A stretch of DNA of 12,301 nucleotides from an uncultured Ruminococcus sp. (GTDB lineage Bacteria; Bacillota; Clostridia; Oscillospirales; Ruminococcaceae), in NCBI GenBank assembly GCA_946537565.1, contig CAMNFW010000042.1, positions 1-12,301 on the forward strand, written 5' to 3'. Of the stretch, positions 3-12,301 are shown in pieces. Position numbers and translations under genes: made by a program. Under the pieces are notes generated by a model, which had not been told where the DNA came from, ran no database searches, and saw only the letters and a program-made list of their open reading frames with translations. Numbering within the stretch: the stretch's first letter is position 1; each line of letters starts with the position of its first letter.

Positions 3-1055
3 TCATTGGCAGACTATACCGCCTTGTGCAACGCAGAAAAGCTTTGAGATAGCCGCCGCCGCGAGCTTTGAGCCGATAACGCAGAGTCTGCCTGTAGTTT
101 CTGCACTGCCTGTACGAACATCCGGAACGCCAGGTACATAGTCAAAGTGTATCCACTGTCCGTCTTCACCTGCAACAATTCCCTTTGCTCTGAGAACAAG
201 TCCGTAGGTTTCTTCATCACTGAGAGCTTCAAGAGCAGCAGTTATAGCCTCGGCAGTATAAGTTCTGGGCGTTTCAGTTCCCCAGCTGGTGAACACTTCG
301 TCAGCATGGTGGTGGTGATGATGATGCTCATGCTCGTCTTCATCATCGTCATCATGGTGGTGATGATGCTCATGCTCGTCTTCATCATCGTCATCATGGT
401 GGTGGTGATGATGATGCTTTTTCTCCTCTTCAAGAAGCTGCTTAAGTTCATCATCAAGAGTATTTACCTGAGTCATAGCCTCAACCAGCTGCTGACCTGT
501 AAGCTCGTCCCACTCAGTAGTAACTATAGGTGCTGCTGAATTAAACTCACGCAGACGCTGTACTACATCATTCAGCTGCTCCTGTGTAAGTCCGGCTGTA
601 TGGCTGAGGATAAGACAGCTTGCATAAGTGATCTGATTGTTAAAGAATTCACCAAAATTCTTCTGATACATCTTGCATTTCTTTGCATCTACAATTGTGG
701 TGAAACCGTCCAGCTCAACATCATGAGCATCAATATTGCGGACAGCATTGATAACATCACTGAGCTTTCCAACTCCAGAAGGCTCGATTAGTATACGGTC
801 AGGCTTATACTCCTCCAGAACCTTTTCCAGAGCCTTTCCGAAATCTCCCACCAGACTGCAGCAGATACAGCCTGAATTCATCTCTGTTATCTCAATGCCT
901 GCATCTTTAAGAAAGCCTCCGTCGATACCTATCTGACCAAACTCGTTTTCGATCAGTACCAGCTTTTCGCCCTTATATCCCTCATTGATGAGCTTCTTGA
1001 TAAGGGTGGTTTTTCCTGCGCCGAGGAAGCCTGAGAAAATAGTAATCTTTGTCAT
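3..1055 (-). CDS. CobW/COG0523-family metal-handling GTPase with His/Asp-rich insert
   Basis: A 350-residue cytoplasmic P-loop GTPase of the G3E/COG0523 family, whose members deliver or insert metals such as zinc, cobalt or nickel. Seen: Walker A GFLGAGKT at residues 9-16; the family's CxCC metal motif (Cys63, Cys65, Cys66); an EPSG segment at the Walker B/switch position; a run of 37 His, Asp and Glu residues at 214-250; and a CobW_C-like tail ending FCVAQGGIVCQ. The usual NKxD guanine-specificity motif is not evident, and the equivalent strand reads LILSHTAGL. The ATG at 1055 is chosen over an in-frame TTG at 1121 because that TTG is part of the -35 box of the promoter, and the frame between them contains the -10. 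The gene is complete: its TGA stop is at 3-5. The metal is unknown; the His-rich loop favours zinc, nickel or cobalt storage or delivery. Confidence 0.9.
   Translation of the reverse strand: MTKITIFSGFLGAGKTTLIKKLINEGYKGEKLVLIENEFGQIGIDGGFLKDAGIEITEMNSGCICCSLVGDFGKALEKVLEEYKPDRILIEPSGVGKLSDVINAVRNIDAHDVELDGFTTIVDAKKCKMYQKNFGEFFNNQITYASCLILSHTAGLTQEQLNDVVQRLREFNSAAPIVTTEWDELTGQQLVEAMTQVNTLDDELKQLLEEEKKHHHHHHHDDDDEDEHEHHHHHDDDDEDEHEHHHHHHHADEVFTSWGTETPRTYTAEAITAALEALSDEETYGLVLRAKGIVAGEDGQWIHFDYVPGVPDVRTGSAETTGRLCVIGSKLAAAAISKLFCVAQGGIVCQ
306..416 (-). repeat. 42-bp tandem duplication encoding His/Asp metal-binding stretch
   Basis: Two head-to-tail 42-bp units start at 326 and 368 and are essentially identical. 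Each encodes 14 residues of the form DDDDEDEHEHHHHH, and the array is flanked on both sides by seven-His runs. The segment is made of cat/cac, gat/gac and gaa/gag codons and sits between the GTPase domain and the C-terminal domain. Unit number could vary by slippage or recombination without changing the frame. Confidence 0.9.
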
Positions 1056-1092
1056 GTTAAAAACACTTCTTTCTAAAAAATCTCCAACTATT

Positions 1093-1121
1093 ATTATATC
1101 ACCTTCTGCAAACAATTGCAA
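1093..1121 (-). promoter_or_regulatory. Sigma-A promoter of the CobW-family gene
   Basis: On the minus strand, TTGCAA (1116-1121) and TATAAT (1093-1098) are separated by exactly 17 bases. The start codon lies about 38 bases beyond the -10, giving a leader of roughly 30 nt with a weak AGAAAG-type ribosome site. Its position rules out the longer upstream start. Confidence 0.75.
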
Positions 1122-1255: not shown

Positions 1256-3127
1256 ATGTGCGGAATAGTTGGTTTTACAAATTGTATTGACAATTCTAAC
1301 GTGGTGCTTGAAAAAATGATGGACAGAATTAAACACAGAGGTCCTGACGCTGCCGGAAAATACATTGACGAGGATATCGCCCTCGGTCACAGAAGACTGA
1401 GTATCATTGACATCAGCTCCAGCGGTGACCAGCCTATAACCAATGAAGACGGCTCTCTTGTTATTATTTTTAACGGTGAGATCTATAATTATCGCCAGCT
1501 TCGTGAAAAGCTTGTGTCTAAAGGCTATAGCTTCAAAACTAAAACCGATACCGAAGTCCTTCTTCTCGGCTATCAGGAATACGGCGAGAAGCTGCTGAAT
1601 ATGCTCAGGGGAATGTTCGCCTTTGTAATCTGGGACAAAAATAAGAAGGAGATCTTTGGTGCCCGTGATTTCTTCGGAATAAAGCCGCTTTACTTTGCTA
1701 ATATGAACGGCTGTTTCATGTTCGGCTCGGAAATCAAATCCTTCCTCGATCACCCTTGCTTCACCAAAGAACTTAATACAACTGCTCTGGAGAATTATCT
1801 CACCTTCCAGTACTCCCCTACTGAACAGACTTTTTTCAAAAATGTCTATAAACTTCTGCCTGCTCACTATTTCCGCTTCAAGGACGGTAAAATGTCTATT
1901 CGCCGCTATTGGGACGTTCATTTCAATGCTGATGAAAAACCAGATCTCGAAGAATGGACAGACCGTATATCACAGGTTTTCCATGATTCCGTTGAAGCTC
2001 ATAAGATCGCTGATGTTGAGGTCGGCTCTTTCCTTTCCAGCGGTGTGGATTCAAGCTACGTTGCTGCTGTGGCTGATGTGGACAAAACTTTTACAGTCGG
2101 CTTCGGCAATGACGAAAAATACAATGAGATCGGCTGGGCTAAGGAATTCTCCAAAGCTATCGGTAAAGAAAACGACAGCAAGGTCATTTCTGATGATGAA
2201 TACTGGAACAGTATCCCAATGATACAATACCACATGGATGAACCTTTGGCTGACCCTTCTGCTGTGGCTCTGTATTTTGTCTGCAATATCGCTTCTGAAA
2301 AACTTAAGGTCGTGCTTTCCGGTGAAGGCGCTGACGAAATCTTCGGCGGCTATAACGTCTACAGCGACCCCAACGGTACAATCTATGACAAACTGCCAAG
2401 AAGTATCAAGCGCACTGTCGGCAAGTTTGCTGCCAAACTCCCGGCTAAAAGAGGTGTAAATTTCTTCGTCCGCAAAGGCAGAGACGTTGAAGAACGATTC
2501 ATCGGAAACGCTTATATGTTCACTCCTGAACAGCGAAAGGAGCTTCTTAAAATCAACACCGATGCTCCCGATCCTATGGCTATTACTATGCCTTATTTCA
2601 AAAATGTCCGGGGCAAGGACGATGTAACTAAAATGCAGTACCTCGATCTCCACCTTTGGATGGCTGGTGATATTCTCCTTAAGGCTGATAAAATGAGCAT
2701 GGCAAATTCACTGGAGCTGCGTGTGCCTTTCCTGGATAAAGAGATAATGGCTCTGGCTGAAAAAATCCCCACTCGTTTCAGAGTGACCCATTCCGAAGGT
2801 ACCGCTGAAACTAAATATATCACAAAGTACGCTATGCGCCTTGCTGCAAAAAAAGATACTCCGGACAGTACAGCTAAAACCGCTGCAAAGAAAAAACTCG
2901 GCTTTCCTGTTCCCATAAGGGTATGGCTCAAAGAGGATAAGTACTATAATATCGTCCGCAGTGCTTTTGAAAGCGAAAGCGCTCAGCAGTTCTTTAACAC
3001 CGCTCCCCTTATCAAGCTTCTCGATGACCATAAGGACGGCAAGGCTGACAACAGCCGCAAGATCTGGACTGTTTTCATTTTCCTTATCTGGTATAATATC
3101 TATTTCGAGAACAACGGAGCTTATTAA
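1256..3127 (+). CDS. asnB: Asparagine synthetase, glutamine-hydrolysing
   Basis: A 623-residue cytoplasmic enzyme that makes asparagine from aspartate, ATP and glutamine. The N-terminal class II glutaminase domain begins MCGIVGF, so Cys2 is the nucleophile after Met removal. Arg47, the FNGEIYNY loop (Asn73, Gly74, Glu75) and Asp98 match the family's glutamine-binding residues. The synthetase domain has the PP-loop LSSGVDSS at 260-267, where many relatives have SGGVDSS, followed by the VVLSGEGADEIFGGY block and the MSMANSLELRVPFLD block. It is longer than E. coli AsnB (554 residues) and close in size to the longer Bacillus-type enzymes. GGAGG 10 bases upstream fixes the start, and the Cys2 requirement confirms it. 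pyrB follows 76 bases downstream with no clear promoter of its own, so the two aspartate-consuming genes may be co-transcribed. I see no missing catalytic residue. Confidence 0.96.
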   Translation: MCGIVGFTNCIDNSNVVLEKMMDRIKHRGPDAAGKYIDEDIALGHRRLSIIDISSSGDQPITNEDGSLVIIFNGEIYNYRQLREKLVSKGYSFKTKTDTEVLLLGYQEYGEKLLNMLRGMFAFVIWDKNKKEIFGARDFFGIKPLYFANMNGCFMFGSEIKSFLDHPCFTKELNTTALENYLTFQYSPTEQTFFKNVYKLLPAHYFRFKDGKMSIRRYWDVHFNADEKPDLEEWTDRISQVFHDSVEAHKIADVEVGSFLSSGVDSSYVAAVADVDKTFTVGFGNDEKYNEIGWAKEFSKAIGKENDSKVISDDEYWNSIPMIQYHMDEPLADPSAVALYFVCNIASEKLKVVLSGEGADEIFGGYNVYSDPNGTIYDKLPRSIKRTVGKFAAKLPAKRGVNFFVRKGRDVEERFIGNAYMFTPEQRKELLKINTDAPDPMAITMPYFKNVRGKDDVTKMQYLDLHLWMAGDILLKADKMSMANSLELRVPFLDKEIMALAEKIPTRFRVTHSEGTAETKYITKYAMRLAAKKDTPDSTAKTAAKKKLGFPVPIRVWLKEDKYYNIVRSAFESESAQQFFNTAPLIKLLDDHKDGKADNSRKIWTVFIFLIWYNIYFENNGAY

Positions 3128-3179
3128 TTCATAATTAAAATCAAAAGCAATGTCAAATTATAAATCTTGAATTATGAAT
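3127..3179. repeat. Perfect 10-bp inverted repeat between asnB and pyrB
   Basis: ATTCATAATT (3127-3136) and AATTATGAAT (3170-3179) are perfect inverted copies around a 33-base AT-rich loop. The first arm begins at the last base of the asnB stop codon. The second ends 11 bases before the pyrB ribosome site. It has no GC-rich stem or T-run, so it is unlikely to be a strong terminator. It could be an mRNA stability element, a leader structure or a small dispersed palindrome. Confidence 0.5.
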
Positions 3180-3190
3180 CCTAAAAAAAC

Positions 3191-3195
3191 GGAGG
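3191..3195 (+). promoter_or_regulatory. Ribosome binding site that sets the pyrB start
   Basis: GGAGG lies 8 bases before the ATG at 3204. An in-frame ATG at 3174 lies upstream of this site, has no ribosome site of its own, and falls inside the inverted-repeat arm. Confidence 0.85.
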
Positions 3196-3203
3196 TCAAA
3201 AAT

Positions 3204-4286
3204 ATGTATTCAGATTATCAGCACCTTATCGACCTGAGTGATTACCCTGTTTCATGGTGGAAAAAACTCATAGAGCTGGGCGAGGACGTAAAAAATGACC
3301 CGGCTAAGTATTCCCATGAGTGTGCCGGAAAAGTTATGGCTACTCTCTTCTACGAACCTTCCACCCGTACTCAGATGTCATTCCAGACCGCTATGATCCG
3401 TCTCGGCGGAGAGATCATAGGATTCGATAATCCTGCAAATTCCTCCGTTGCCAAAGGTGAAACTATCAAGGATACAACTAAGATCGTCAGCGGTTATGCT
3501 GATATTCTCGTTATCCGTCACCCGATCGCCGGTGCAGCTAAAGCCGCTTCACTGACCGCTGACTGTCCCGTTATCAATGCCGGTGACGGCGGTCATCTTC
3601 ACCCAACTCAGACCCTCACCGATCTGCTTACTCTTAAAATAGAAAAAAAGACCCTCTCAGGTCTGACTATTGGTATGTGCGGCGATCTTCTCAACGGAAG
3701 AACAGTTCATTCTCTCTGCAAGGCTCTTAGTATGTTCAGCAATAATAAATTCATCTTCATTTCTACCAAAGAGCTGGGTATGCCGGCTTATATCAAGGAT
3801 ATTATCAAAGCTAACGGCAGCACCTTTGAGGAAGTCCATACCCTCGAAGAAGTCATCGGCAAACTTGATGTTCTGTACATGACAAGAATCCAGCAGGAAC
3901 GTTTTGCCAGTGAAGAGGAATATCTCGCTCAGAAAAATACTTACGTCCTTGACCGAAGAAAAATGCAGCTTGCAAAAAAAGATATGATCGTTATGCATCC
4001 GCTGCCAAGAGTCGATGAGATCACCGTTGATGTTGACGATGACCCAAGAGCTATGTATTTTACCCAGGCAAAGTATGGCGTTTATGTCCGCATGGCTCTT
4101 ATCATGACTATGCTGAAAGAGAAAAATCGCTTTGAGACCCTCAAAGGCAAGGTATATTCCGGTGTCCGCTGTTCAAATCCTAAATGTATCACAAATCATG
4201 AAGAGTATCTGCCAAAGAGCTTCCGTTCAAGCGGTGACGAAACTCTCCTCGAATGTGAGTACTGTGACGAGAGAAAACTTATATAA
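3204..4286 (+). CDS. pyrB: Aspartate carbamoyltransferase with C-terminal PyrI-like zinc domain
   Basis: A 360-residue protein that condenses carbamoyl phosphate with aspartate in the committed pyrimidine step. Seen: STRT phosphate-binding motif at 53-56; catalytic-loop Lys84 in SVAKGET, the same number as in E. coli; the GHLHPTQTL block; and HPLPRVDE at 265-272, which marks it as an aspartate rather than ornithine enzyme. The catalytic chain should end near residue 310. About 45 residues follow with Cys323, Cys328, Cys351 and Cys354 (C-x4-C-x22-C-x2-C). Spacing and local sequence (NPKCI, LECEYC) match the zinc domain of the separate E. coli PyrI chain, whose allosteric nucleotide-binding domain is absent here. 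The tail may hold catalytic trimers together or help assembly without CTP/ATP control; that is inference. It is followed directly by a terminator, with no pyrI gene downstream. Confidence 0.95.
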   Translation: MYSDYQHLIDLSDYPVSWWKKLIELGEDVKNDPAKYSHECAGKVMATLFYEPSTRTQMSFQTAMIRLGGEIIGFDNPANSSVAKGETIKDTTKIVSGYADILVIRHPIAGAAKAASLTADCPVINAGDGGHLHPTQTLTDLLTLKIEKKTLSGLTIGMCGDLLNGRTVHSLCKALSMFSNNKFIFISTKELGMPAYIKDIIKANGSTFEEVHTLEEVIGKLDVLYMTRIQQERFASEEEYLAQKNTYVLDRRKMQLAKKDMIVMHPLPRVDEITVDVDDDPRAMYFTQAKYGVYVRMALIMTMLKEKNRFETLKGKVYSGVRCSNPKCITNHEEYLPKSFRSSGDETLLECEYCDERKLI

Positions 4287-4320
4287 ACCGTTTCCCGTCG
4301 ATAAATACTGTGTAACTAAT

Positions 4321-4355
4321 AAAGCGCTGACATAATAATCAGCGCTTTTGTTATT
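4321..4355. terminator. Hairpin terminator, probably bidirectional
   Basis: A perfect 10-bp stem, AAAGCGCTGA (4321-4330) with TCAGCGCTTT (4339-4348), closes an 8-base loop and is followed by TGTTATT. On the opposite strand the stem is followed by ATTAGTT. It lies between the convergent ends of pyrB and the propeller protein gene and can serve both. Confidence 0.85.
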
Positions 4356-4381
4356 GCATAGATGTTTCGTCAGCGGATGAA

Positions 4382-5509
4382 TCAGCCTTCTCCGCTCTGC
4401 TTGTACCGCATTATTTCGTTCAGAGGATTATGATAGAATATCGAATCCCCCAGAATCACAGGATAACTTACTTCACCAAGATCAGAATAGGTGTTGGCTA
4501 TGCTGCCGTCTTTGTTAAGTCTTAGCAGGCAGCCTGATTTATCCGTGCAGTATATATAACCATTGGCATAATTATTATGCTTGGAATAGGCTTTTCTCAG
4601 CAGCTTTATATCTGAGCCGTTTTTGTCAGCAGAATAAAGCCAGCGGGTGTCACGGTCTGAGGAATAGTAAATCCTGTCTTCAACTAAACACAGATCAGAT
4701 GTCTCATCGGCTATCAGCACTCTTCGGTCACTGCCGTCAAGTCCGATACTCTCCAGCGCATAGCCATTATCATAGTTAACATAATATATCCTGTCTTCAC
4801 TGACACACATATACCAGCAGTTTACCTGGCTTAGCTGTTCAAAGCCTGAGCCGTCTGTATTAACTCTGGAAATGTAATGGCGGTTGTTTGAATCAACATA
4901 ACTGAAATACAATGTATCTCCGCTGAGTGTAAGCTCATAGCAATATCCATTCTGAAGCTTTCGCAGATCTGTACCGTCGGTCTTTATTGTATATACACTG
5001 TTGTTGTCATTGCTGTTGCAGAAATAAAGCCTGTCTCCGTCGATATTAAGATAATGGCACTCTATGTCTGCAAGGACAGTATAATTTCCGTTATTATCAT
5101 ATGTACTGAGCTTTCCGTTTTCTGAAATATAACAAACATCTCCGTCACTTGCTGCATATCCGCCGCTAAGGATATTTGCCGTTCCCAGCTGATATGGCGC
5201 AAGTCCCAGGGAAGATGAACGGATGGAAGTTTCAGTTATCTCAGGAACATATTCAGTTGATTCAGGCAGAGCTTCTGTATTTTCAGCCTCAGCGGAAGGT
5301 GCAGTTTCAGGAGCAGCTGTCTGCGGTTCAGCTGAAGGCTCTGTAGCAGGAGCTTCTGTGGAAATAGTTGTCCCATTGGTTGGCTGTACTGGTTCAGGCT
5401 CTTCTTCTCCCTTGTTGACAAGTAGAAGTATCAGCGTGGTAGCCATTGCAACGATAATCATCACAAGTACAGTTATAAGCGTTATTAATTTTTTATTATC
5501 AGTATTCAT
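4382..5509 (-). CDS. Membrane-anchored extracellular beta-propeller protein (DUF5050-like)
   Basis: A 375-residue protein with a short Lys-containing N-terminus, one membrane helix at 8-31, an acidic Thr/Pro/Ala/Glu-rich linker at about 34-105, and a repetitive beta-rich domain to the end. The repeats follow the pattern DRIYY or DTLYF, then a basic or polar turn, then DGTDLRKL-like ends (DGTDL, DGSGF, DGSDR, NGSDI, DGSIA). This is the pattern of six-bladed propellers in the DUF5050/LRP1-like group. No lipobox or catalytic motif is seen. Topology predicts the propeller outside the cell, probably binding a ligand or a wall component. GGAGGG ends 9 bases before the ATG and sets the start. The gene stands alone behind a consensus promoter, diverging from the HAD phosphatase gene. 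The specific function is unknown. Confidence 0.85.
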   Translation of the reverse strand: MNTDNKKLITLITVLVMIIVAMATTLILLLVNKGEEEPEPVQPTNGTTISTEAPATEPSAEPQTAAPETAPSAEAENTEALPESTEYVPEITETSIRSSSLGLAPYQLGTANILSGGYAASDGDVCYISENGKLSTYDNNGNYTVLADIECHYLNIDGDRLYFCNSNDNNSVYTIKTDGTDLRKLQNGYCYELTLSGDTLYFSYVDSNNRHYISRVNTDGSGFEQLSQVNCWYMCVSEDRIYYVNYDNGYALESIGLDGSDRRVLIADETSDLCLVEDRIYYSSDRDTRWLYSADKNGSDIKLLRKAYSKHNNYANGYIYCTDKSGCLLRLNKDGSIANTYSDLGEVSYPVILGDSIFYHNPLNEIMRYKQSGEG

Positions 5510-5543
5510 AATGCCAATCCCTCCTGACAGTTTTCGTAATAAT

Positions 5544-5572
5544 ATTATACCCTTTCTTAGCTGTTATGTCAA
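5544..5572 (-). promoter_or_regulatory. Consensus sigma-A promoter of the propeller gene
   Basis: On the minus strand, a perfect TTGACA (5567-5572) and a perfect TATAAT (5544-5549) are 17 bases apart. The GGAGGG ribosome site (5519-5524) follows downstream. It suggests strong constitutive expression unless a repressor acts. Confidence 0.88.
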
Positions 5573-5598
5573 ATCTAAATATCAGGTAAACTCTGTAT

Positions 5599-5652
5599 TA
5601 TTCAGCCTTTGAACTGCTTTCTGCATCTTTTTTTAATTGTACCGGCTGAATA
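5599..5652. promoter_or_regulatory. Inverted repeat between divergent promoters (possible operator)
   Basis: TATTCAGCC (5599-5607) and GGCTGAATA (5644-5652) are perfect 9-bp inverted copies with a 36-base spacer. The right arm ends one base before the -35 of the HAD gene. The left arm is 26 bases upstream of the -35 of the propeller gene. A regulator bound here could touch both promoters, but there is no family match to support it. Confidence 0.3.
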
Positions 5653-5653
5653 T

Positions 5654-5682
5654 TTGACAACTAAATTCTTTTGTGATATAAT
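5654..5682 (+). promoter_or_regulatory. Consensus sigma-A promoter of the HAD gene
   Basis: A perfect TTGACA (5654-5659) and a perfect TATAAT (5677-5682) are 17 bases apart. The -10 ends 27 bases before the start codon, so the leader is very short, about 20 nt. Confidence 0.88.
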
Positions 5683-5709
5683 TATCAATATCATACATAC
5701 GGAGGATCT

Positions 5710-6498
5710 ATGAAAAATATCATCTTTTTCGACATTGACGGTACCCTTATCACTGAGGACTACAGAATGCTCGTCCCCGAAAGTACCGCAAAAGCCATCG
5801 AACTGACAAGAAAAAAAGGAAACCTGACTTTCATCAATACCGGCAGAACTGAATTCAATGTTATAAAAAAAGTCCGTGACCTCGGATTTGACGGTTATCT
5901 CTGCGGCTGCGGAACTTATATTGAATTCGGCGGCGAGGGCCTGCTTTATCATACTCAGGAAAAAGATATGTGCCTGAAAATAGCCGAAATATGCCAAAAA
6001 TCAGGTGTATCACCTGTTTATGAAAGACGGGACGGTTACTTCTTTGACGATGATGCCGCTCCCAACGATGGAATAGAATATTTCAAAAAAATATTCGCCG
6101 GCTCTGATATAAGAGTGGATCAGCGTGTGACTGATGAGGATTTCAGCTTCGATAAATTCGTTTTCTGGACAAATCCCGGCTCTGATACTGAGTTTATTTT
6201 CAACAGTATCCGCCCATATTTCCAGATCATTGACCGTGGCGGCGGTTTTTATGAGAACGTCCCTATCGGTTACTCCAAAGCCACTGCTATTGATATGATG
6301 CTGAAAAAACTGGATATACCGCTAGAAAATGCCTATGCCATCGGTGACAGTACGAATGACCTGCCAATGCTTGAGGCTGTTCCGAACAGTATCGCAATGG
6401 GCGGCTCAGAAAGTATTTATCCCTATGTTTCGTACATAACCACTGGTATCGAAAATGACGGCATCTACAATGCCCTTGATCATTTCGGTCTGATATAA
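5710..6498 (+). CDS. Cof-type HAD-IIB phosphatase
   Basis: A 262-residue soluble hydrolase of the haloacid dehalogenase superfamily, Cof/YbiV-like type IIB. All four motifs are present: DIDGT at 8-12 (Asp8 nucleophile, Asp10 acid/base), NTGR at 43-46 (Thr44), Lys190 in the YSK segment, and GDSTND at 212-217 (magnesium-binding Asp213 and Asp217). The cap domain lies between motifs II and III, about residues 80-185, as expected for type IIB. Such enzymes dephosphorylate sugar phosphates, nucleotides or pyridoxal phosphate, and the substrate cannot be read from this sequence. GGAGG is only 4 bases from the ATG, which is short but has no better alternative. The gene is monocistronic, between its own promoter and a strong terminator. 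Confidence 0.93.
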   Translation: MKNIIFFDIDGTLITEDYRMLVPESTAKAIELTRKKGNLTFINTGRTEFNVIKKVRDLGFDGYLCGCGTYIEFGGEGLLYHTQEKDMCLKIAEICQKSGVSPVYERRDGYFFDDDAAPNDGIEYFKKIFAGSDIRVDQRVTDEDFSFDKFVFWTNPGSDTEFIFNSIRPYFQIIDRGGGFYENVPIGYSKATAIDMMLKKLDIPLENAYAIGDSTNDLPMLEAVPNSIAMGGSESIYPYVSYITTGIENDGIYNALDHFGLI

Positions 6499-6501
6499 AA
6501 C

Positions 6502-6586
6502 GCCTGAGAGATCAGAACTTTTCTTCATACATAGATATATCATTATATCTTGCGAAGAAAAATCTCTGTTCTCTCAGGCTTTTTTT
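6502..6586. terminator. Long hairpin terminator between convergent units
   Basis: GCCTGAGAG (6502-6510) pairs perfectly with CTCTCAGGC (6571-6579). The pairing continues with interruptions through CAGA/TCTG and a TTTTCTTC/GAAGAAAA segment, giving a stem of roughly 25 bp with an AT-rich loop. Seven T residues (6580-6586) follow on the plus strand, overlapping the stop codon of the leftward gene. On the minus strand the stem is followed by GTTTTATAT, so the hairpin could also end the leftward operon. Confidence 0.88.
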
Positions 6587-8489
6587 ACTGAAACTCTACA
6601 AATTCACGGCTGACGTATCCAAACGTTACCTGATCGTACTTGTCAACATAGCGCACATAGCACCACTTGGAATTGTAACCGAATACATCTACTATCCAGC
6701 CGATCGGTATTTTTCCGATAACTGTTTTGTCACCGCCGGATACTGAAGGCTCACTCCTCAGATTCAGTGGATCTTCCTTTGTGATGACCTTGCACTTTGC
6801 AACAGGAGCATCTTCTATCGTCATATCCGCAGGCGCTCTCGAACGGTCAATATCCTTGATCGTAGGATCAACAGTTGCAGGTGGAATGGTTACAACTATA
6901 GTTTGTTCTTCCGCAGCTGTGGTAATAATGATCGTTGCTTCCTCCGGCTCTTCATAAGCTTCTGTTACATCAGAATATTCACCAGTCTCTTCATATGAAA
7001 TATTTCCGTCATTGCTGTCGGCATATCTGCTATCTGCCTGATTCCTATTATTTTCAGGTACTGTATTCTCAGTAGCTGCAATGATACCCGGCGAATCCAG
7101 ATTCTCTTGTACATGAGGTTTAGTTAAGATGAATTTATATATACCTATTCCAATACCTACCGCAGCAGCAAGCCCTATCACTATCGGCAGAAGACTGTGC
7201 TTTCCGCCAGACGGAGACGGAACTGGCTGCGGCTGTACCGGATTTGGTCGAACCGGCTCAAAAGAAGGTACCTCCCTGCCTGAAAATCTGCCGTTATTTC
7301 CGGTATATCCACCATTATTACTGTTATTCTCAGTATTATTTACACCGCCGCTGTTATTTCTGAAACCGCCCACATCAGGCTTGCTGTACTGATTATCGTT
7401 ACCGCTGTTGTTCAGAGGTTCAGGACTTGCTGGCTCTGGCTTCTTAAGATTGACCGGCTGAGCTGATGATGCCTTCGGTACAGGCTGAGCAGTTTTCTTT
7501 ACAGTGACCACCCTCTCAGGGAAGTGCATCGGTGAATCTCCTGGCAGGACAGTTCCTGCTCGCTTAAGATCCGCTATAAAATCGCTTAGTCCGCTGTAAC
7601 GCATATCAGGAGAGTAACAAAGCGCCTTTCTTACAACATATTTCAGCTCAGGCGAACCGTTTTCAGGCTCAGGTATTTCCTTTGCTCCCTTGCATCTCTC
7701 TCCTATTGCATCATTTTGTGAGGTGCTATTATCCTCAAAGGGAAGTCTTCCGTTATTAAGCAGTCCATACATCACCAGTCCTAATGAATACACATCGCTC
7801 TTTTCATATGGCTCAAGACTTGTATTTTCAATTAGCTCCGGCGCAGAATACCTCTGCTCTTTCTCAGTCCTGTCAAGGAACCATTGCTTAAGCGGAATTG
7901 CAAGCACATAATTCCTGTTTCCTTCATCTTCATCTATCATTATGTTTTCAGGTGAAACACAGCCATAACTGATATCCTCTGAATAGAAGGTCTGCAAAGC
8001 GAAGGCGATATCAAGACCCAGCTCCTTTACAGTTTCATTCAGCTTTTCCGGACTTTCGCCGGTTATCTGCGTATATATGCTGCTGAGCAGCGGAAGAGGA
8101 ACATATCTGAGCAGTGCATCATAACCGCCAGGCTCACGTTCTCCCGGCTGCTCGATACATATTCCTCTTCTGTCAAAGGAAAAAACCTTTCCGAAATCAG
8201 CACTGCATATATACCTTGATTTTTCAGTTACACTGATCACCCTTTCCATAAGCTCAGATTTGTAACTGATAAGAAATTCCGGGTCTTTCAACAGCGATAT
8301 ATCTTCTTCACTGAAATCTCTCACTGCCACAAATAGTTTCCGGCTGTCATTGCTCTCGCCGTCAACTAAGGCTATACCATCGGCAGCTGGATGATCTGAC
8401 ATAGGAATCCAGCTTCCCCATTTTGAATCTCCCTTATAATTTTCAATTGCATGATATTCACTTACTCTGCTGAATACATCAAATTCCAA
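6585..8489 (-). CDS. Transmembrane pseudokinase with extracellular SH3b domain
   Basis: A 634-residue membrane protein, laid out like PknB-type receptor kinases. Residues 1-311 form a cytoplasmic kinase-like domain, 312-430 a Pro/Asn/Gly-rich linker, 433-456 one membrane helix, 460-560 an acidic Thr-rich extracellular linker, and 563-634 a bacterial SH3 domain (LNLRSEPS, then IPIGWIVDV and WCYVRYV). The kinase C-lobe scaffold is clear: APE at 216-218, SDVYSLG at 231-237, GRLPFED, and Arg297. The HRD-x-K-P-x-N loop reads YGCVSPEN (175-182), replacing the catalytic Asp and Lys with Cys177 and Ser179. The DFG position is Ile-Pro-Leu (198-200), and no glycine loop is seen. Phosphotransfer is therefore unlikely. 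The TTG start is supported by AAGGTGG 9 bases upstream and by alignment with the neighbouring paralogue. SH3b domains often bind peptidoglycan, so wall sensing is a reasonable inference. Last gene of the operon. Confidence 0.85.
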   Translation of the reverse strand: MEFDVFSRVSEYHAIENYKGDSKWGSWIPMSDHPAADGIALVDGESNDSRKLFVAVRDFSEEDISLLKDPEFLISYKSELMERVISVTEKSRYICSADFGKVFSFDRRGICIEQPGEREPGGYDALLRYVPLPLLSSIYTQITGESPEKLNETVKELGLDIAFALQTFYSEDISYGCVSPENIMIDEDEGNRNYVLAIPLKQWFLDRTEKEQRYSAPELIENTSLEPYEKSDVYSLGLVMYGLLNNGRLPFEDNSTSQNDAIGERCKGAKEIPEPENGSPELKYVVRKALCYSPDMRYSGLSDFIADLKRAGTVLPGDSPMHFPERVVTVKKTAQPVPKASSAQPVNLKKPEPASPEPLNNSGNDNQYSKPDVGGFRNNSGGVNNTENNSNNGGYTGNNGRFSGREVPSFEPVRPNPVQPQPVPSPSGGKHSLLPIVIGLAAAVGIGIGIYKFILTKPHVQENLDSPGIIAATENTVPENNRNQADSRYADSNDGNISYEETGEYSDVTEAYEEPEEATIIITTAAEEQTIVVTIPPATVDPTIKDIDRSRAPADMTIEDAPVAKCKVITKEDPLNLRSEPSVSGGDKTVIGKIPIGWIVDVFGYNSKWCYVRYVDKYDQVTFGYVSREFVEFQ

Positions 8490-8498
8490 ATCGCAAAA

Positions 8499-8505
8499 CC
8501 ACCTT
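8499..8505 (-). promoter_or_regulatory. Ribosome binding site supporting a TTG start
   Basis: On the minus strand AAGGTGG ends 9 bases before TTG at 8489. No in-frame ATG lies nearby. The residues after the TTG (FDVFSRVSEY) align with those after the ATG of the upstream paralogue (FDFFDRLSEY), which supports this start. Confidence 0.75.
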
Positions 8506-8515
8506 TATAACTGTG

Positions 8516-8544
8516 ATTATCCAGTATCTGTTTCCATATACCAA
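8516..8544 (-). promoter_or_regulatory. Weak candidate promoter between the two pseudokinase genes
   Basis: On the minus strand TTGGTA (8539-8544) and GATAAT (8516-8521) are 17 bases apart in the 69-base gap between the two genes. It is poorer than the other promoters here and may be chance. If real, it would let the SH3b gene be expressed without the upstream genes. Confidence 0.3.
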
Positions 8545-8558
8545 AATAGTTCTGACTT

Positions 8559-10712
8559 TTATCCGCCATACTCTATTATATAACCCATATTACTGTCCTT
8601 GTAATTTGTATACTTCGGATCAGTTACGTCAGGTGCATCATTCATAGACCACTCCTTGGGCGCTCCGTTTCCGGCTGATATATACCATAACAGAAGATAC
8701 GGCTCTGCTACCTTGTTGCCGGTGTTCTTATACTCATATATATCTATACCTGAAGGTTCGCTGGAGTTGAGGCTATTACTGAAGAACCAATGTGTACATT
8801 TCCCTGAACCTGAATAGATATATGATGTATCAGAATCATCAGTCCACCTGAATGAGATCTCAATTGTATTATTATCCTTAAACGTTGGAGTTGTTCTTCC
8901 GCCCAGCCAGACGTATTGCAGATCAGGATTTTTAGCACGGGCTTCCTCAACGCAGGCAATTATTTTGTTCCAGTCATCTTCCGAGTGCATGGTTGCAAGC
9001 TTTCCGCCGGCGGTCTTGCAGTTACGCTCTGCTTCCTCCCATGTAACCTTTCCAGCCACAAATTCATATTTATGTTCAACAGTTGTGGTGACAGGAACTG
9101 TTGTAGTGGGTGCAGCAGTAGTCTGTACAGTAGTAGGAATAGTCTGTGTAATAGTAGGCTCTTCTGTAGCTATAGCAGGTGCATCAGTCTGATAATTCAG
9201 ATCCTGCGAATCATTATTTTTATCAGTAGTACCTACAGCGCCTGAATCAACGGACGATGAACCAGCCGATGAACTGCCGCCTCCGGAATTATTCTGAGCC
9301 GGCTGTTTCGACAAAAAGAACATTGAGCCGAGAATTCCAAGTCCAAGCAGTGCAAGTACAGCCAGCACTATTATAACTACTTTTAAAGTTGAATTTCCTC
9401 CAGTGGAAAGAGCCCCCACCGGAACTCCGTTATTATGAACCGGTTCTGAATTCTGATTTCCGCCGGAGCTTCCGCTCTGATTCTGTCCATACGGCGGCTG
9501 ATATCCGCCTCCGCCGGAGCTTCCGCCTTGATTCTGTCCATACGGCGGCTGATATCCTGCGGCTGTAGGATCTGGTCTTTGAAAATTACCAGTCCGTGGA
9601 GATGGAGCTGGAGCTGGCGGTGTAACTTGCTTCCTTTCCGGCTTTTCCAGCGGCACCGGCTCAGGCTTGATCTCCGGCTTTTCCAGTGATACCGCCGGTT
9701 CCGGCACTGAACCAAATTCCTCACGCAGCGTGCTTATGTTCATTTCTTTGCCTGGACCCCTGATTATAAATCCGCCGTAATTATTAAGATCCTCTAAAAG
9801 CTCCTGATAGCTTCCATAACGTACACGTCTGTTATGAGCAAGACATTTCCTTACAATATAACTCAGCTGATCATCGGCTTTTAACGGTGAACATATCTCA
9901 GTCTCGCCCTTGTTTCTTGTTTTAAGAGCATCTGAACGTGAAGTATTATTATCCTCAAACGGCAGCCTGCCATTGTTCAGCAGCCCATACATCAGAAGTC
10001 CCACGGAATATATATCCGTCTGCTGATCACCAATACGGCTGACATCTGAAATCAGCTCCGGAGCTGTGTATTCGTTCCTTACTGTGTCATTTTCATCAGC
10101 TTTGAAAAACAGGTCGATAAGCGGAAATGCCAGCTGATATTTTTCACTGCTATCTCTCTGACAAATGATTATATTCTTAGGTTCAACAGAACAATACCTG
10201 AGCTTTTCTTTATCCATAGCAAGCAAAGCTTTTGTGATATGTTCTGCGATTGTCACAACGGTCTTTCCCAGCTTATCCTGAGACAGACTGTATATTCTGC
10301 TCAATTCTGATTCAAGTTTATTTTCAGGAACAGAGCGCAGGAGTATATCAAATCCTGCCAGCTCACTGTCTGCGTCTGCTGATATTCCTCTCTTATCAAA
10401 ACCATAAACTCCGCCAAAATCCACACTCTGGACATATCCGCAGGAATCAGCTGTTCTCAGCAGCTTGCTCATAAGAGTGATTTTTTTATTCATCAGCTCC
10501 CGTGCCTGATCATTTGTCAGATGCAGTCCCTGATCACTGAACAGGAACTGTGCCTGATACATAATTCTTGGGTCGTCTTCTCCTGAAATACAGTGAAGCA
10601 TATCCGGAATGACAGTTTCATCTTCCATGGAGATCCAGTCACCCCAACGGCTGCTTCCCTTGCTTTTTTCGATTTCCTGATACTCTGACAATCTGTCAAA
10701 AAAATCAAACAT
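8559..10712 (-). CDS. Transmembrane pseudokinase with extracellular C-type-lectin-like domain
   Basis: A 717-residue paralogue of the next gene. Residues 1-315 are a cytoplasmic kinase-like domain, about 320-440 a Pro-rich then Gly/Gln/Tyr-rich linker, 442-467 one membrane helix, 470-545 a Ser/Gly then Thr-rich extracellular linker, and about 548-717 a C-type-lectin-like fold. In the kinase part, APE (217-219), TDIYSVG and GRLPFED remain. The catalytic loop reads YCSVEPKN (173-180), with Ser175 for Asp and Glu177 for Lys. The DFG site is Phe-Pro-Leu (196-198), and no VAIK lysine is visible. The lectin-like part shows WEEAERNCKTAGGKLATMHS, WLGG at 602-605, FRWTDDSD, an EPSG loop at 652-655, a WSMND segment ending at 692 and the closing YIIEY strand. 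EPSG and ND resemble calcium/sugar-site EPN and WND motifs. Glycan or protein binding outside the cell is likely; an active kinase is not. Confidence 0.85.
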   Translation of the reverse strand: MFDFFDRLSEYQEIEKSKGSSRWGDWISMEDETVIPDMLHCISGEDDPRIMYQAQFLFSDQGLHLTNDQARELMNKKITLMSKLLRTADSCGYVQSVDFGGVYGFDKRGISADADSELAGFDILLRSVPENKLESELSRIYSLSQDKLGKTVVTIAEHITKALLAMDKEKLRYCSVEPKNIIICQRDSSEKYQLAFPLIDLFFKADENDTVRNEYTAPELISDVSRIGDQQTDIYSVGLLMYGLLNNGRLPFEDNNTSRSDALKTRNKGETEICSPLKADDQLSYIVRKCLAHNRRVRYGSYQELLEDLNNYGGFIIRGPGKEMNISTLREEFGSVPEPAVSLEKPEIKPEPVPLEKPERKQVTPPAPAPSPRTGNFQRPDPTAAGYQPPYGQNQGGSSGGGGYQPPYGQNQSGSSGGNQNSEPVHNNGVPVGALSTGGNSTLKVVIIVLAVLALLGLGILGSMFFLSKQPAQNNSGGGSSSAGSSSVDSGAVGTTDKNNDSQDLNYQTDAPAIATEEPTITQTIPTTVQTTAAPTTTVPVTTTVEHKYEFVAGKVTWEEAERNCKTAGGKLATMHSEDDWNKIIACVEEARAKNPDLQYVWLGGRTTPTFKDNNTIEISFRWTDDSDTSYIYSGSGKCTHWFFSNSLNSSEPSGIDIYEYKNTGNKVAEPYLLLWYISAGNGAPKEWSMNDAPDVTDPKYTNYKDSNMGYIIEYGG
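9460..9557 (-). repeat. 51-bp tandem repeat encoding YQPPYGQNQ linker units
   Basis: Two copies with a 51-base period: the segment at 9460-9475 recurs at 9511-9526, and 9481-9506 recurs exactly at 9532-9557. They encode two 17-residue units of the form GYQPPYGQNQ followed by Gly/Ser. The repeat lies in the cytoplasmic linker just before the membrane helix of the lectin-type pseudokinase. Confidence 0.9.
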
Positions 10713-10719
10713 TGAATTA

Positions 10720-10725
10720 CCCCTT
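10720..10725 (-). promoter_or_regulatory. Ribosome site overlapping the upstream stop codon
   Basis: On the minus strand AAGGGG lies 7 bases before the ATG at 10712 and shares two bases with the TAA stop of the coiled-coil gene (10724-10726). Only 11 bases separate the two reading frames, so translational coupling is likely. Confidence 0.6.
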
Positions 10726-12301
10726 ATTTCAGTTCTAACCAGAGCTTGCCTCTGCGTTCAACACTTAGCCTGCTTCCTTTATAATATGCTACAGCCGGCT
10801 CAATGCCCTTCAGAATATAGCTGTGATTAGTTTTTAGTTCAATATTGAAGCTAAAGATGCGATTCAATTTTTCTATCTCTGCACAATCTATACCGTCAGT
10901 TGTAAACCTGCTATAGTAGTATGGGTTTGGAATAAGGTCTCCGTCATCTTCTTTAACAAGCGCTGCATTTCTATAACTTCCGGAAACATGAAGCGCCAGC
11001 TCTCCGCTGAGTTCAACGGTAAACGCTATGAATTCAATATTCTGCTTATCATCAAGAATGCTTATATCCGAAAAATAATTCATATATTCCTGCTGTCTCG
11101 GATTTGGTTTGTTTTGGGCAGGAGTATTGCCGAAAGACGGATTATTGGGCACTGAAATTGGTGAACCCAATGAATTAAACGGATTTAACGACGGCTGAGG
11201 ATTGCTTCGAGCCTTGCTAAACTCCTGTGATAGTCTTTTTATTTCCGCATTGAGTGCAGCGATCTTTTTTTCGCTGACAGCCTTTTCACTATTGAGCGAG
11301 TTGATAGTAGCGTTTGCTTTGTTGATCCTCTGAGTAGCATCAGCATAAAGACGTTCATAATTTAATTTAGACTGTTCAAGCTGTTTTTTCAGCTTTTCTG
11401 TCTCCTGCTGATTTCCCGCTGAACCAAGCTGTTTTTTAAGCTCAGCCAGCTCATTCTCAGCAGCCGCAAGCTTTCCCTCATATTCCTTAGCAGCAGCTTC
11501 GGACTTGATTTTCTCAGCATCTTGAGAAAGATTCAGATTTCTCAGCTTTTCAGTAAGAAGCTCATTATCCTTTTGCAAGCTTTCGATAACTCCGCTGCTG
11601 TCGCCGCTCATACTGCTTATCTGCTCTTTAAGCTTTTCATTCTCAGCTGTAAGCTGATTTTTCAGTTCTTCAATTTCCTTCTGCTTGATCGCAAGCTCTG
11701 TTTTATGTTCATTTTTAAGCTTTTCGATTTCCTGAGTCTTTTTCGCATTATCCTCCTCAGCCTTAGCTGCATTGGATTCAACCGCATTAAGATTTGCTTT
11801 AAGCTCAGCGATCTCCTTATCTTTTGCGGAGCTGTCAATTTGCTGCTGAGCTTTTTCCTCATCGAACCTGTCCAGCTTATCCTTAAGACGTTTATTCTCA
11901 GCCGTAACACTATCAAGCTTAAGGTCCAGCTTAGCCTTTTCAGTCAGAAGCTCATCACGGTTTTTCTGCAATTCTTTGCTGTCTTCCTTGACTTCCTTCA
12001 ACCGCTTCTCGATCTGTCTTTCATGATCTTCCTTAAGCTTTGCCAGTTCATTTTCATGATCTTCCTTAAGCTTCTGGATTTTCTTCTCATGCTCTTCCTT
12101 AGCATTATTCAGTTTATTCTCTGATTCTGCCTCTGCCTTTTCAATATCACTTTGAAGCTTAGCTATGTTCTTTTTCTGCTTTTCAATAATTTCAGCCTGA
12201 GCTGTTTCAGCATCTCCGGCATTACGATAGCTCTCAGCCTCTTTTTTGTAATTATCGCACTTTTCCTGAATCGTCTCTTTTTCTTTAGTAAGATTTTGAA
12301 G
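10724..12301 (-). CDS. Long coiled-coil protein with C-terminal globular domain (5' end outside window)
   Basis: The reading frame is open through the right edge of the window: the 100 codons upstream of an internal TTG at 12001 contain no stop and no usable start, so the true start lies outside. At least 525 residues are visible. About the first 360 are heptad-like, rich in Lys, Glu, Ala, Leu and Gln with almost no Pro or Gly, and form a long coiled coil. An Asn/Pro/Ser-rich linker of about 45 residues follows (LNPFNSLGSPISVPNN region). The last 122 or so form a compact domain with alternating hydrophobic strands (IEFIAFTVELSGELALHVSG) and end RRGKLWLELK. I recognise no family for that domain. 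No signal peptide or membrane segment is visible in this part. It lies 11 bases ahead of the lectin-type pseudokinase gene, so the proteins probably act together, perhaps as a scaffold. Confidence 0.85.
   Translation of the reverse strand, partial: LQNLTKEKETIQEKCDNYKKEAESYRNAGDAETAQAEIIEKQKKNIAKLQSDIEKAEAESENKLNNAKEEHEKKIQKLKEDHENELAKLKEDHERQIEKRLKEVKEDSKELQKNRDELLTEKAKLDLKLDSVTAENKRLKDKLDRFDEEKAQQQIDSSAKDKEIAELKANLNAVESNAAKAEEDNAKKTQEIEKLKNEHKTELAIKQKEIEELKNQLTAENEKLKEQISSMSGDSSGVIESLQKDNELLTEKLRNLNLSQDAEKIKSEAAAKEYEGKLAAAENELAELKKQLGSAGNQQETEKLKKQLEQSKLNYERLYADATQRINKANATINSLNSEKAVSEKKIAALNAEIKRLSQEFSKARSNPQPSLNPFNSLGSPISVPNNPSFGNTPAQNKPNPRQQEYMNYFSDISILDDKQNIEFIAFTVELSGELALHVSGSYRNAALVKEDDGDLIPNPYYYSRFTTDGIDCAEIEKLNRIFSFNIELKTNHSYILKGIEPAVAYYKGSRLSVERRGKLWLELK
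12021..12073 (-). repeat. 33-bp internal repeat in the coiled-coil gene
   Basis: The 20-base segment at 12021-12040 recurs exactly at 12054-12073, a 33-base period that encodes 11-residue units containing KLKEDHE. The period equals three helical turns and fits an extended coiled coil. A third, weaker unit (EEHEKKIQKL) precedes them in the protein. Confidence 0.75.

Follow-up and report, generated by a model that had tools for sequence, protein, structure and literature searches.

The window analysed here, a stretch of 12,301 nucleotides from an uncultured Ruminococcus sp., belongs to a 310-contig assembly that is about 90% complete, with about 10% of the genome possibly missing. On its minus strand it carries two adjacent genes, here called PK1 and PK2, each encoding a predicted membrane protein in which a kinase-like domain that has lost its catalytic residues is joined through a transmembrane helix to an ectodomain. 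Both open reading frames (ORFs) had been reported on this strand in a sequence-only reading of the DNA and were found as described there. The two genes lie head to tail behind a gene for a coiled-coil protein, 69 bases separate PK1 from PK2, and a AAAGGTGG-like ribosome site was read before the TTG start of PK2. The features of the two genes are as follows.

8559..10712, minus strand: PK1, 717 amino acids, ATG start; kinase-like domain, linker, transmembrane helix, stalk and C-type lectin-like ectodomain
10623..10712, minus strand: PK1 N-terminal element with W-x-x-W, residues 1-30, 60% identical in PK2
9777..10712, minus strand: PK1 pseudokinase domain, residues 1-312 (AlphaFold2, Foldseek and VIA-align; N-lobe of low confidence)
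10173..10196, minus strand: PK1 degenerate catalytic loop YCSVEPKN, HRDxKPxN in relatives (alignment)
10119..10127, minus strand: FPL replacing DFG in PK1 (alignment)
9318..9380, minus strand: PK1 transmembrane helix, residues 445-465 (hydropathy)
8571..9050, minus strand: PK1 C-type lectin-like ectodomain, residues 555-714 (Pfam Lectin_C match over 555-642)
6585..8489, minus strand: PK2, 634 amino acids, TTG start; kinase-like domain, linker, transmembrane helix, stalk and SH3b-like ectodomain
8400..8489, minus strand: PK2 N-terminal element, residues 1-30, counterpart of that of PK1 (alignment)
7554..8489, minus strand: PK2 pseudokinase domain, residues 1-312 (AlphaFold2, Foldseek and VIA-align; N-lobe of low confidence)
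7944..7967, minus strand: PK2 degenerate catalytic loop YGCVSPEN (alignment)
7890..7898, minus strand: IPL replacing DFG in PK2 (alignment)
7122..7184, minus strand: PK2 transmembrane helix, residues 436-456 (hydropathy)
6594..6767, minus strand: PK2 SH3b-like ectodomain, residues 575-632 (SH3_3 below the Pfam cut-off)

The Pfam Pkinase model (cut-off 31.7 bits) matched PK1 with 38.5 bits over residues 130-304 and PK2 with 47.1 bits over residues 152-299, mainly over the C-lobe. In the AlphaFold2 models of the two proteins the predicted local distance difference test (pLDDT) score of the C-lobe was mostly 80-97. When these models were compared with known structures by Foldseek, PknB ranked first for PK2, and for PK1 tyrosine kinases came first with PknB at rank 43. 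With VIA the top row was staphylococcal PknB in the case of PK1 and mycobacterial PknB in that of PK2, where rows within 1 Z of each other count as ties. The comparison with PknB that the sequence-only reading had proposed therefore matches the C-lobes to PknB-type kinases, the N-lobe being of low confidence, and the profile and the predicted structures together show that the C-lobe of both proteins has the kinase fold. The two ectodomains had been put forward there as well. The lectin of PK1 stands, barely, with 23.9 bits against the Lectin_C cut-off of 22.6, and the SH3b domain of PK2 is weaker than claimed, with 19.5 bits against the SH3_3 cut-off of 27; SH3_3 is the ectodomain in two intact relatives. 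The lectin-like ectodomain of PK1 is homologous to that of L052:7671-8765, a zinc-ribbon, transmembrane, C-type lectin protein with an AAA ATPase gene nearby; of the context loci that were fetched, this one has the lectin domain nearest to PK1's.

Neither protein has an Asp at HRD or DFG, where active kinases have one. The HRD Asp is replaced by Ser175 in PK1 and Cys177 in PK2, the Lys that follows by Glu177 and Ser179, and the DFG Asp by F196 and I198; the Asn of the loop is present in both (Asn180 and Asn182). A profile alignment shifts the register of PK2 at DFG (to V-L), and Asp is absent there too. These losses had been named in the sequence-only reading and were borne out when the residues were rechecked. 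What that reading had not reported, besides the operon-like coiled-coil gene at 10724-12301, is the loss of the ATP elements of the N-lobe. In a MAFFT alignment with intact relatives the column of the beta3 Lys holds F56 in PK1 and R57 in PK2, that of the alphaC Glu holds K77 in both, and the glycine-rich loop (G-loop) is unrecognisable in both, these N-lobe assignments being read from sequence alignment and the W-x-x-W anchor as the models are poor there.

Thirty-one positions that are at least 90% conserved in 48 relatives (a set without L017, L053 and L066, which are degenerate or odd) were aligned in both PK1 and PK2, and 13 more conserved positions, mostly of the N-lobe, were not aligned in the two and lie outside this number. 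Among the 31, 17 were kept in both proteins, 2 in one, and 12 were lost in both. The doubly lost positions fall mostly in the catalytic loop and just before it, in DFG and in the activation segment, and the doubly kept ones include the P and N of the catalytic loop, the PE of APE, the D-Y-S-G of alphaF, a P-F and a late R-Y. Because the kept and the lost positions cluster by region in this manner, the loss pattern in PK1 and PK2 differs from random decay, and the earlier claim that the scaffold of the C-lobe is kept holds on this count.

In a tree of C-lobes, made without the long or partial rows L097, L006, L066, L009 and L055, PK1 and PK2 were sisters with support of 100/99, and the rows nearest to them by tree path were receptor kinases of the genus. 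The two also share replacements, namely Tyr at the His of HRD and L-A-x-P-L at DFG, to which the alignment of the N-lobe, which is less certain, adds Lys in place of the alphaC Glu. As they are sisters with common replacements, catalysis was probably lost once, before the duplication, and the two are therefore not independent witnesses to selection. The sequence-only reading had counted the joint loss in two paralogues as evidence that transmembrane pseudokinases were here selected for binding; the kinase fold and its retention stand, and the argument from a double loss does not. The W-x-x-W element is also found in the receptor-kinase relatives and is absent from the 3 PrkC-type rows aligned beside them, and the same is true of the stretch N-x-G-x-x-P-F-E...A...R..G of the C-lobe. 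These two features are a stronger hint of origin from the receptor family than the tree is, and they suggest that PK1 and PK2 may descend from inside the receptor-kinase family of the genus.

When PK1 and PK2 were compared over 315 codons by the method of Nei and Gojobori (NG86), the nonsynonymous rate (dN) was 0.62, the synonymous rate (dS) 1.55 and their ratio (dN/dS, or omega) 0.40. The proteins are 40% identical and both ORFs are intact; in a neutral simulation about 12 stops arose per lineage and stop-free runs were 0 out of 2000. Protein searches found only two database proteins, P0001 and P0002, close to PK1 and PK2. P0001, presumably a copy from another strain, and PK1 have 11 differences in 717 residues, all of them outside residues 1-314. 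Nine of the 11 fall at residues 315-364, and local recombination may therefore have played a part. Between P0002 and PK2 a single residue in 634 is different. The dN/dS of about 0.40, the absence of stop-free neutral runs and the unchanged residues 1-314 of P0001 make the case for selection, and they support that PK1 and PK2 are retained rather than decaying.

A profile of PK1 and PK2 was searched against 125 genomes of the genus, the own genome included, and matched in 35 of them, one being the own, at an E-value (E) of 1e-12 or less. The window genes scored 635 and 614 bits, and no other match in the genus exceeded 81 bits. The 393 other genomes sampled from the order gave no match at E<=1e-22, and no second copy scoring near PK1 and PK2 was found in the 125 genus and 394 order genomes (own included). 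In a set of 5.8 billion proteins the best match apart from the two near-identical copies was P0004, at 73 bits, whose motifs are those of an intact kinase; one protein search scored only the 7997 candidates sharing most words. Against genome contigs, from which very near records were possibly omitted, PK1 gave 13 pattern stretches and alignment A3 gave 56 stretches, none of them a relative, and a tblastn search of plasmids with the last 353 residues of PK1, which span the linker, helix and lectin but not the kinase domain, gave no match.

The more distant relatives are for the most part intact by their motifs. The beta3 Lys, HRD Asp and DFG Asp were kept in 51 of 53 unique kinase domains, and the DFG Asp was lost in 2. 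These 53 domains come from the fetched loci of the genus and the order, and among them are PrkC-type kinases as well as some from other families within the order; 17 of 70 hit rows were omitted from the count, 6 being duplicates and 11 partial, and these 17 include PK1 and PK2 copies and the kinases of contigs C3 and C4. Thus HRD and DFG are mostly intact in the wider family, a result that the sequence-only reading had thought might show PK1 and PK2 to be just decayed copies, which was not the outcome. That reading had also regarded pseudokinase receptor pairs with lectin and SH3b heads as unfamiliar, but intact-motif kinases of the genus carry such heads. Among 23 relatives Pfam found Lectin_C in 3, SH3_3 in 2, F5/8C/NADase_transloc in 4, DUF5050 in 2, VanY with Big_2 in 2, LRR_5, dockerin and YARHG in 1 each, and no named ectodomain in 7. 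At several of these loci two or three kinases are adjacent with differing heads. The receptor kinases that we group together in this analysis (e.g. L039, L042, L046, L050 and L059) share with PK1 and PK2 the W-x-x-W N-terminus, the N-x-G-x-x-PFE...A...R..G stretch, a single helix, a lectin or SH3b head (that of PK2 being below the Pfam cut-off) and tandem copies. Unlike PK1 and PK2, which by alignment have none of these, they keep the G-loop, beta3 Lys, alphaC Glu, HRD and DFG, and some of them lie beside an FHA-FHA-ABC ATPase, an ABC-2 permease and a PP2C gene, which PK1 and PK2 lack in the window. Of 17 loci with such kinases, several being short contigs and two (L043 and L051) belonging to other families of the order, 6 have a homologue of the L039 FHA-ABC protein and 10 have one of the L039 PP2C. 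Mycobacterial Rv1747-PknF is a comparable pair.

In two other species of the genus we observed kinases with VanY carboxypeptidase heads (L057 7793-9895 and L053 6163-8289) in which the DFG Asp is changed to Gly and the loop Lys to Ala. They resemble PK1 and PK2 as transmembrane receptors with lost catalytic residues, and unlike these they keep the HRD Asp, the beta3 Lys and the G-loop. The two are 84% identical over 320 codons with a dN/dS of 0.08, and theirs is therefore a conserved, separate loss.

In the own genome PF00069 had five matches at E<=1, three of them (PK1, PK2 and a protein on contig C4) without the HRD Asp. An intact PASTA kinase with a PP2C neighbour lies on contig C20 (L056), and a protein of 1380 amino acids with HRDIKPAN lies on contig C3. 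The latter (L055 5491-9633) has a kinase-like domain, adjoins a PP2C gene and has near its C-terminus a match to a Card1-like endonuclease barely under the cut-off. On contig C4 there is a third pseudokinase (L054 5511-7619), with HRAISPET for the catalytic loop and SGF for DFG, laid out as a zinc ribbon, a kinase-like domain, a hydrophobic stretch and a PASTA domain. No active kinase of the W-x-x-W family was found in this about 90% complete genome.

Two neighbouring genes of the window bear on PK1 and PK2.

10724..12301, minus strand: gene for a coiled coil and a C-terminal domain, operon-like, upstream of PK1, open at the window end
4382..5509, minus strand: kinase-less receptor with a transmembrane helix and a DUF5050 ectodomain (DUF5050 136.5 bits)

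The coiled-coil gene stops 11 bases upstream of PK1. Its C-terminal domain has two paralogues on contig C208 of the same genome and none in the 124 other genus genomes searched, so that among the 125 genus genomes this neighbour is one of a three-member set confined to the own genome. The two paralogues (L095 903-2573 and 3102-3911) are coiled-coil proteins sharing this private domain, and the first seemingly also has a transmembrane helix with a further part preceding it. No shared end was found by which contig C208 could be joined to the window where the coiled-coil gene runs out of it. In the gene at 4382-5509 only a transmembrane helix precedes the DUF5050 ectodomain, which is homologous to those of intact-motif kinases of the genus (240 bits with L042:9014-11551 and 235 bits with L050:4402-6906); a HAD-type gene on the opposite strand sits between it and PK2. 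With this stub and PK1 and PK2, sensor heads of the family are therefore present in the genome and no active member was found. No FHA-ABC, permease or PP2C neighbours of PK1 and PK2 were found in the window, which ends inside the upstream gene. The GC content at third codon positions is 0.39-0.40 in PK1, PK2 and the coiled-coil and DUF5050 genes and 0.46-0.49 in the genes at 1256-3127, 3174-4286 and 5710-6498. Over 4200-12301 there are 20 promoter-like sites against 16.6 expected (standard deviation 3.8) and 11 terminator-like sites against 6.3 expected (standard deviation 2.6); two perfect promoter-like sites at about 5544-5682 lie outside the finding on PK1 and PK2. No RNA families over the gathering score and no tRNAs were found in the window. 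The gene at 3-1121 (minus strand) encodes a CobW-type GTPase that contains long runs rich in His and in Asp/Glu and may handle metal.

Several known systems come close to PK1 and PK2. The PASTA kinases PknB and PrkC have the same topology and fold, whereas PK1 and PK2 have neither a PASTA match nor catalytic residues, and the NCBIfam PknB model gave 40.5 bits for PK2 and 39.1 bits for PK1 against a cut-off of 450. The MADS6 anti-phage kinase was rejected, its NCBIfam model giving 33.4 bits (PK2) and 40.9 bits (PK1), far under 460. The PADLOC PD-T4-6 models, for which the source sets no cut-off, matched with best E-values of 4.4e-12 (PK2) and 7.2e-14 (PK1), mostly over the C-lobe with some stretches extending to 484-548, and the MkoA and PglW models of PADLOC, likewise without a cut-off, matched too, as expected of kinase models. 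EssB/YukC has its own Pfam family, which was not among the families listed at E<=0.1 for PK1 or PK2, and no secretion genes were recognised in the window. The matches that VIA and Foldseek listed for the two models are protein kinases, with no chain of EssB or MviN among those listed, an absence that excludes nothing. In PMC12599244, EssB/YukC is described as a transmembrane pseudokinase with a scaffold role in type VIIb secretion, and like PK1 and PK2 it is a membrane pseudokinase of Firmicutes with degraded G-loop, Lys, HRD and DFG. According to the same paper, MviN (ActPs3), in which the phosphorylated pseudokinase tail recruits FhaA, is like PK1 and PK2 a membrane protein with three degraded motifs, and its binding role is exerted via FhaA. 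Its Mycobacterium tuberculosis motifs (VALT, LSIDHPSR and a DFG lost to Y--; Table 1 of PMC12599244, where a Nocardia row has FPG at DFG) differ from YCSVEPKN/FPL of PK1 and YGCVSPEN/IPL of PK2, its flippase domain is not seen in these, and ActPs3 is, by that account, primarily actinobacterial. The GLW pseudokinases described there have GLW in place of HRD and poly-Leu at beta3 (PMC12599244), whereas PK1 has YCS and PK2 has YGC at HRD. A lectin-headed bacterial receptor pseudokinase was not among the entries listed by the literature searches, which leave out most subscription papers.

The explanation that we favour, with a probability of about 0.58, is that PK1 and PK2 are single-pass membrane receptors which use a dead cytoplasmic kinase domain as a binding module and which come from one dead ancestor. 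That ancestor would have been most like the receptor Ser/Thr kinase family common in the genus, which swaps ectodomains and is partly found beside a two-FHA ABC ATPase, a permease and PP2C, and it would have been already dead when it duplicated to give PK1 and PK2. The predicted lectin-like and SH3b-like heads may sense the envelope or an extracellular glycan as their ligand, and a signal would pass the single helix to the cytoplasmic side, where the retained C-lobe (PE of APE, alphaF and the alphaG region) and the W-x-x-W element would dock a partner. The coiled-coil operon neighbour is the nearest candidate for this partner; alternatively the partner could be phospho-dependent, as in mycobacterial MviN-FhaA. 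MviN and EssB can serve as precedents for bacterial membrane pseudokinases acting as scaffolds (PMC12599244).

Several observations weigh against this explanation. An orthologue in another species was not found in the searches above, and conservation of the dead state is seen within this species only. The unrooted C-lobe tree is a three-way fork with long branches, its arms being the PK1 and PK2 pair, 8 PrkC-type kinases (96/98) and 41 receptor kinases (96/68), and it does not place the pair inside the receptor family. The dS between PK1 and PK2 is near saturation, and the omega of 0.40 is more relaxed than the 0.14-0.27 of intact pairs (computable in 8 of 28, the other 20 being saturated), so that constraint is present but relaxed. 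In both models most N-lobe blocks as far as residue 65 have a pLDDT of only about 30-55, so that the residues assigned to beta3 and alphaC, and any conclusion on ATP binding, are tentative. Finally, the window holds no FHA-ABC partner genes, and the sole FHA match (E<=1) in the 90% complete assembly is a protein of 137 amino acids with a hydrophobic N-terminus.

Alternatively, the lineage may have lost FHA-ABC and its active receptor kinases, with PK1, PK2 and the DUF5050 stub as leftovers in decay. The absence of an FHA-ABC gene and of an intact family kinase from the genome as assembled, the kinase-less receptor nearby, the relaxed omega and the lack of orthologues in the genus, order and protein searches fit with this, but both ORFs are intact at 40% identity with omega of about 0.4 and no stops, the scaffold residues are preferentially kept and the database copies are intact as well, and we consider it unlikely. 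Decayed pseudogenes as the principal explanation were set aside on account of the intact ORFs, the omega and the 0/2000 stop-free neutral runs. It is rather improbable that PK1 and PK2 are dominant-negative or decoy receptors, which would have ligand heads or kinase docking surfaces in common with an active kinase and so weaken the signal that it sends: their ectodomain types are the same as those of intact-motif kinases and an intact PASTA kinase with a PP2C neighbour remains in the genome, but the ectodomain of that kinase differs, and a W-x-x-W-family active kinase to antagonise was not found. Least probable of all is that they are atypical enzymes with a remodelled cleft for some other ATP-dependent chemistry (AMPylation or glutamylation), or for a kinase reaction in which residues that have migrated take part; SelO and SidJ are precedents (PMC12599244). 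The catalytic-loop Asn (N180/N182), the Arg at the beta3 Lys position in PK2, the Lys at the alphaC Glu position in both, and the acidic residues common to both in the turn after the loop (D187/E189) and just before it (E169/E171) speak for this, but Asp is absent at HRD and DFG, the G-loop is unrecognisable and the shared acidic residues, by alignment, appear to lie off the catalytic and metal positions.

If PK1 and PK2 are indeed dead, one genus holds both dead and apparently living receptor kinases with like sensor heads. At least two separate losses of catalytic residues are seen in it, that of PK1 and PK2 and that of the VanY-headed pair. A bolder and doubtful extension is that this species has a phosphorylation-free version of the genus-wide receptor-kinase/FHA-ABC module, in which lectin, SH3b and DUF5050 heads were kept on dead kinases and a stub and coupled instead to a new coiled-coil family with the private domain; were this true, the kinase fold would serve as a purely ligand-gated docking platform. 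Bacterial pseudokinases are, according to PMC12599244, largely unexplored by experiment, and the genus lends itself to a comparison in nature that would show which parts are retained once a receptor kinase no longer phosphorylates, namely the C-lobe scaffold, the W-x-x-W element and a helix-linked sensor.

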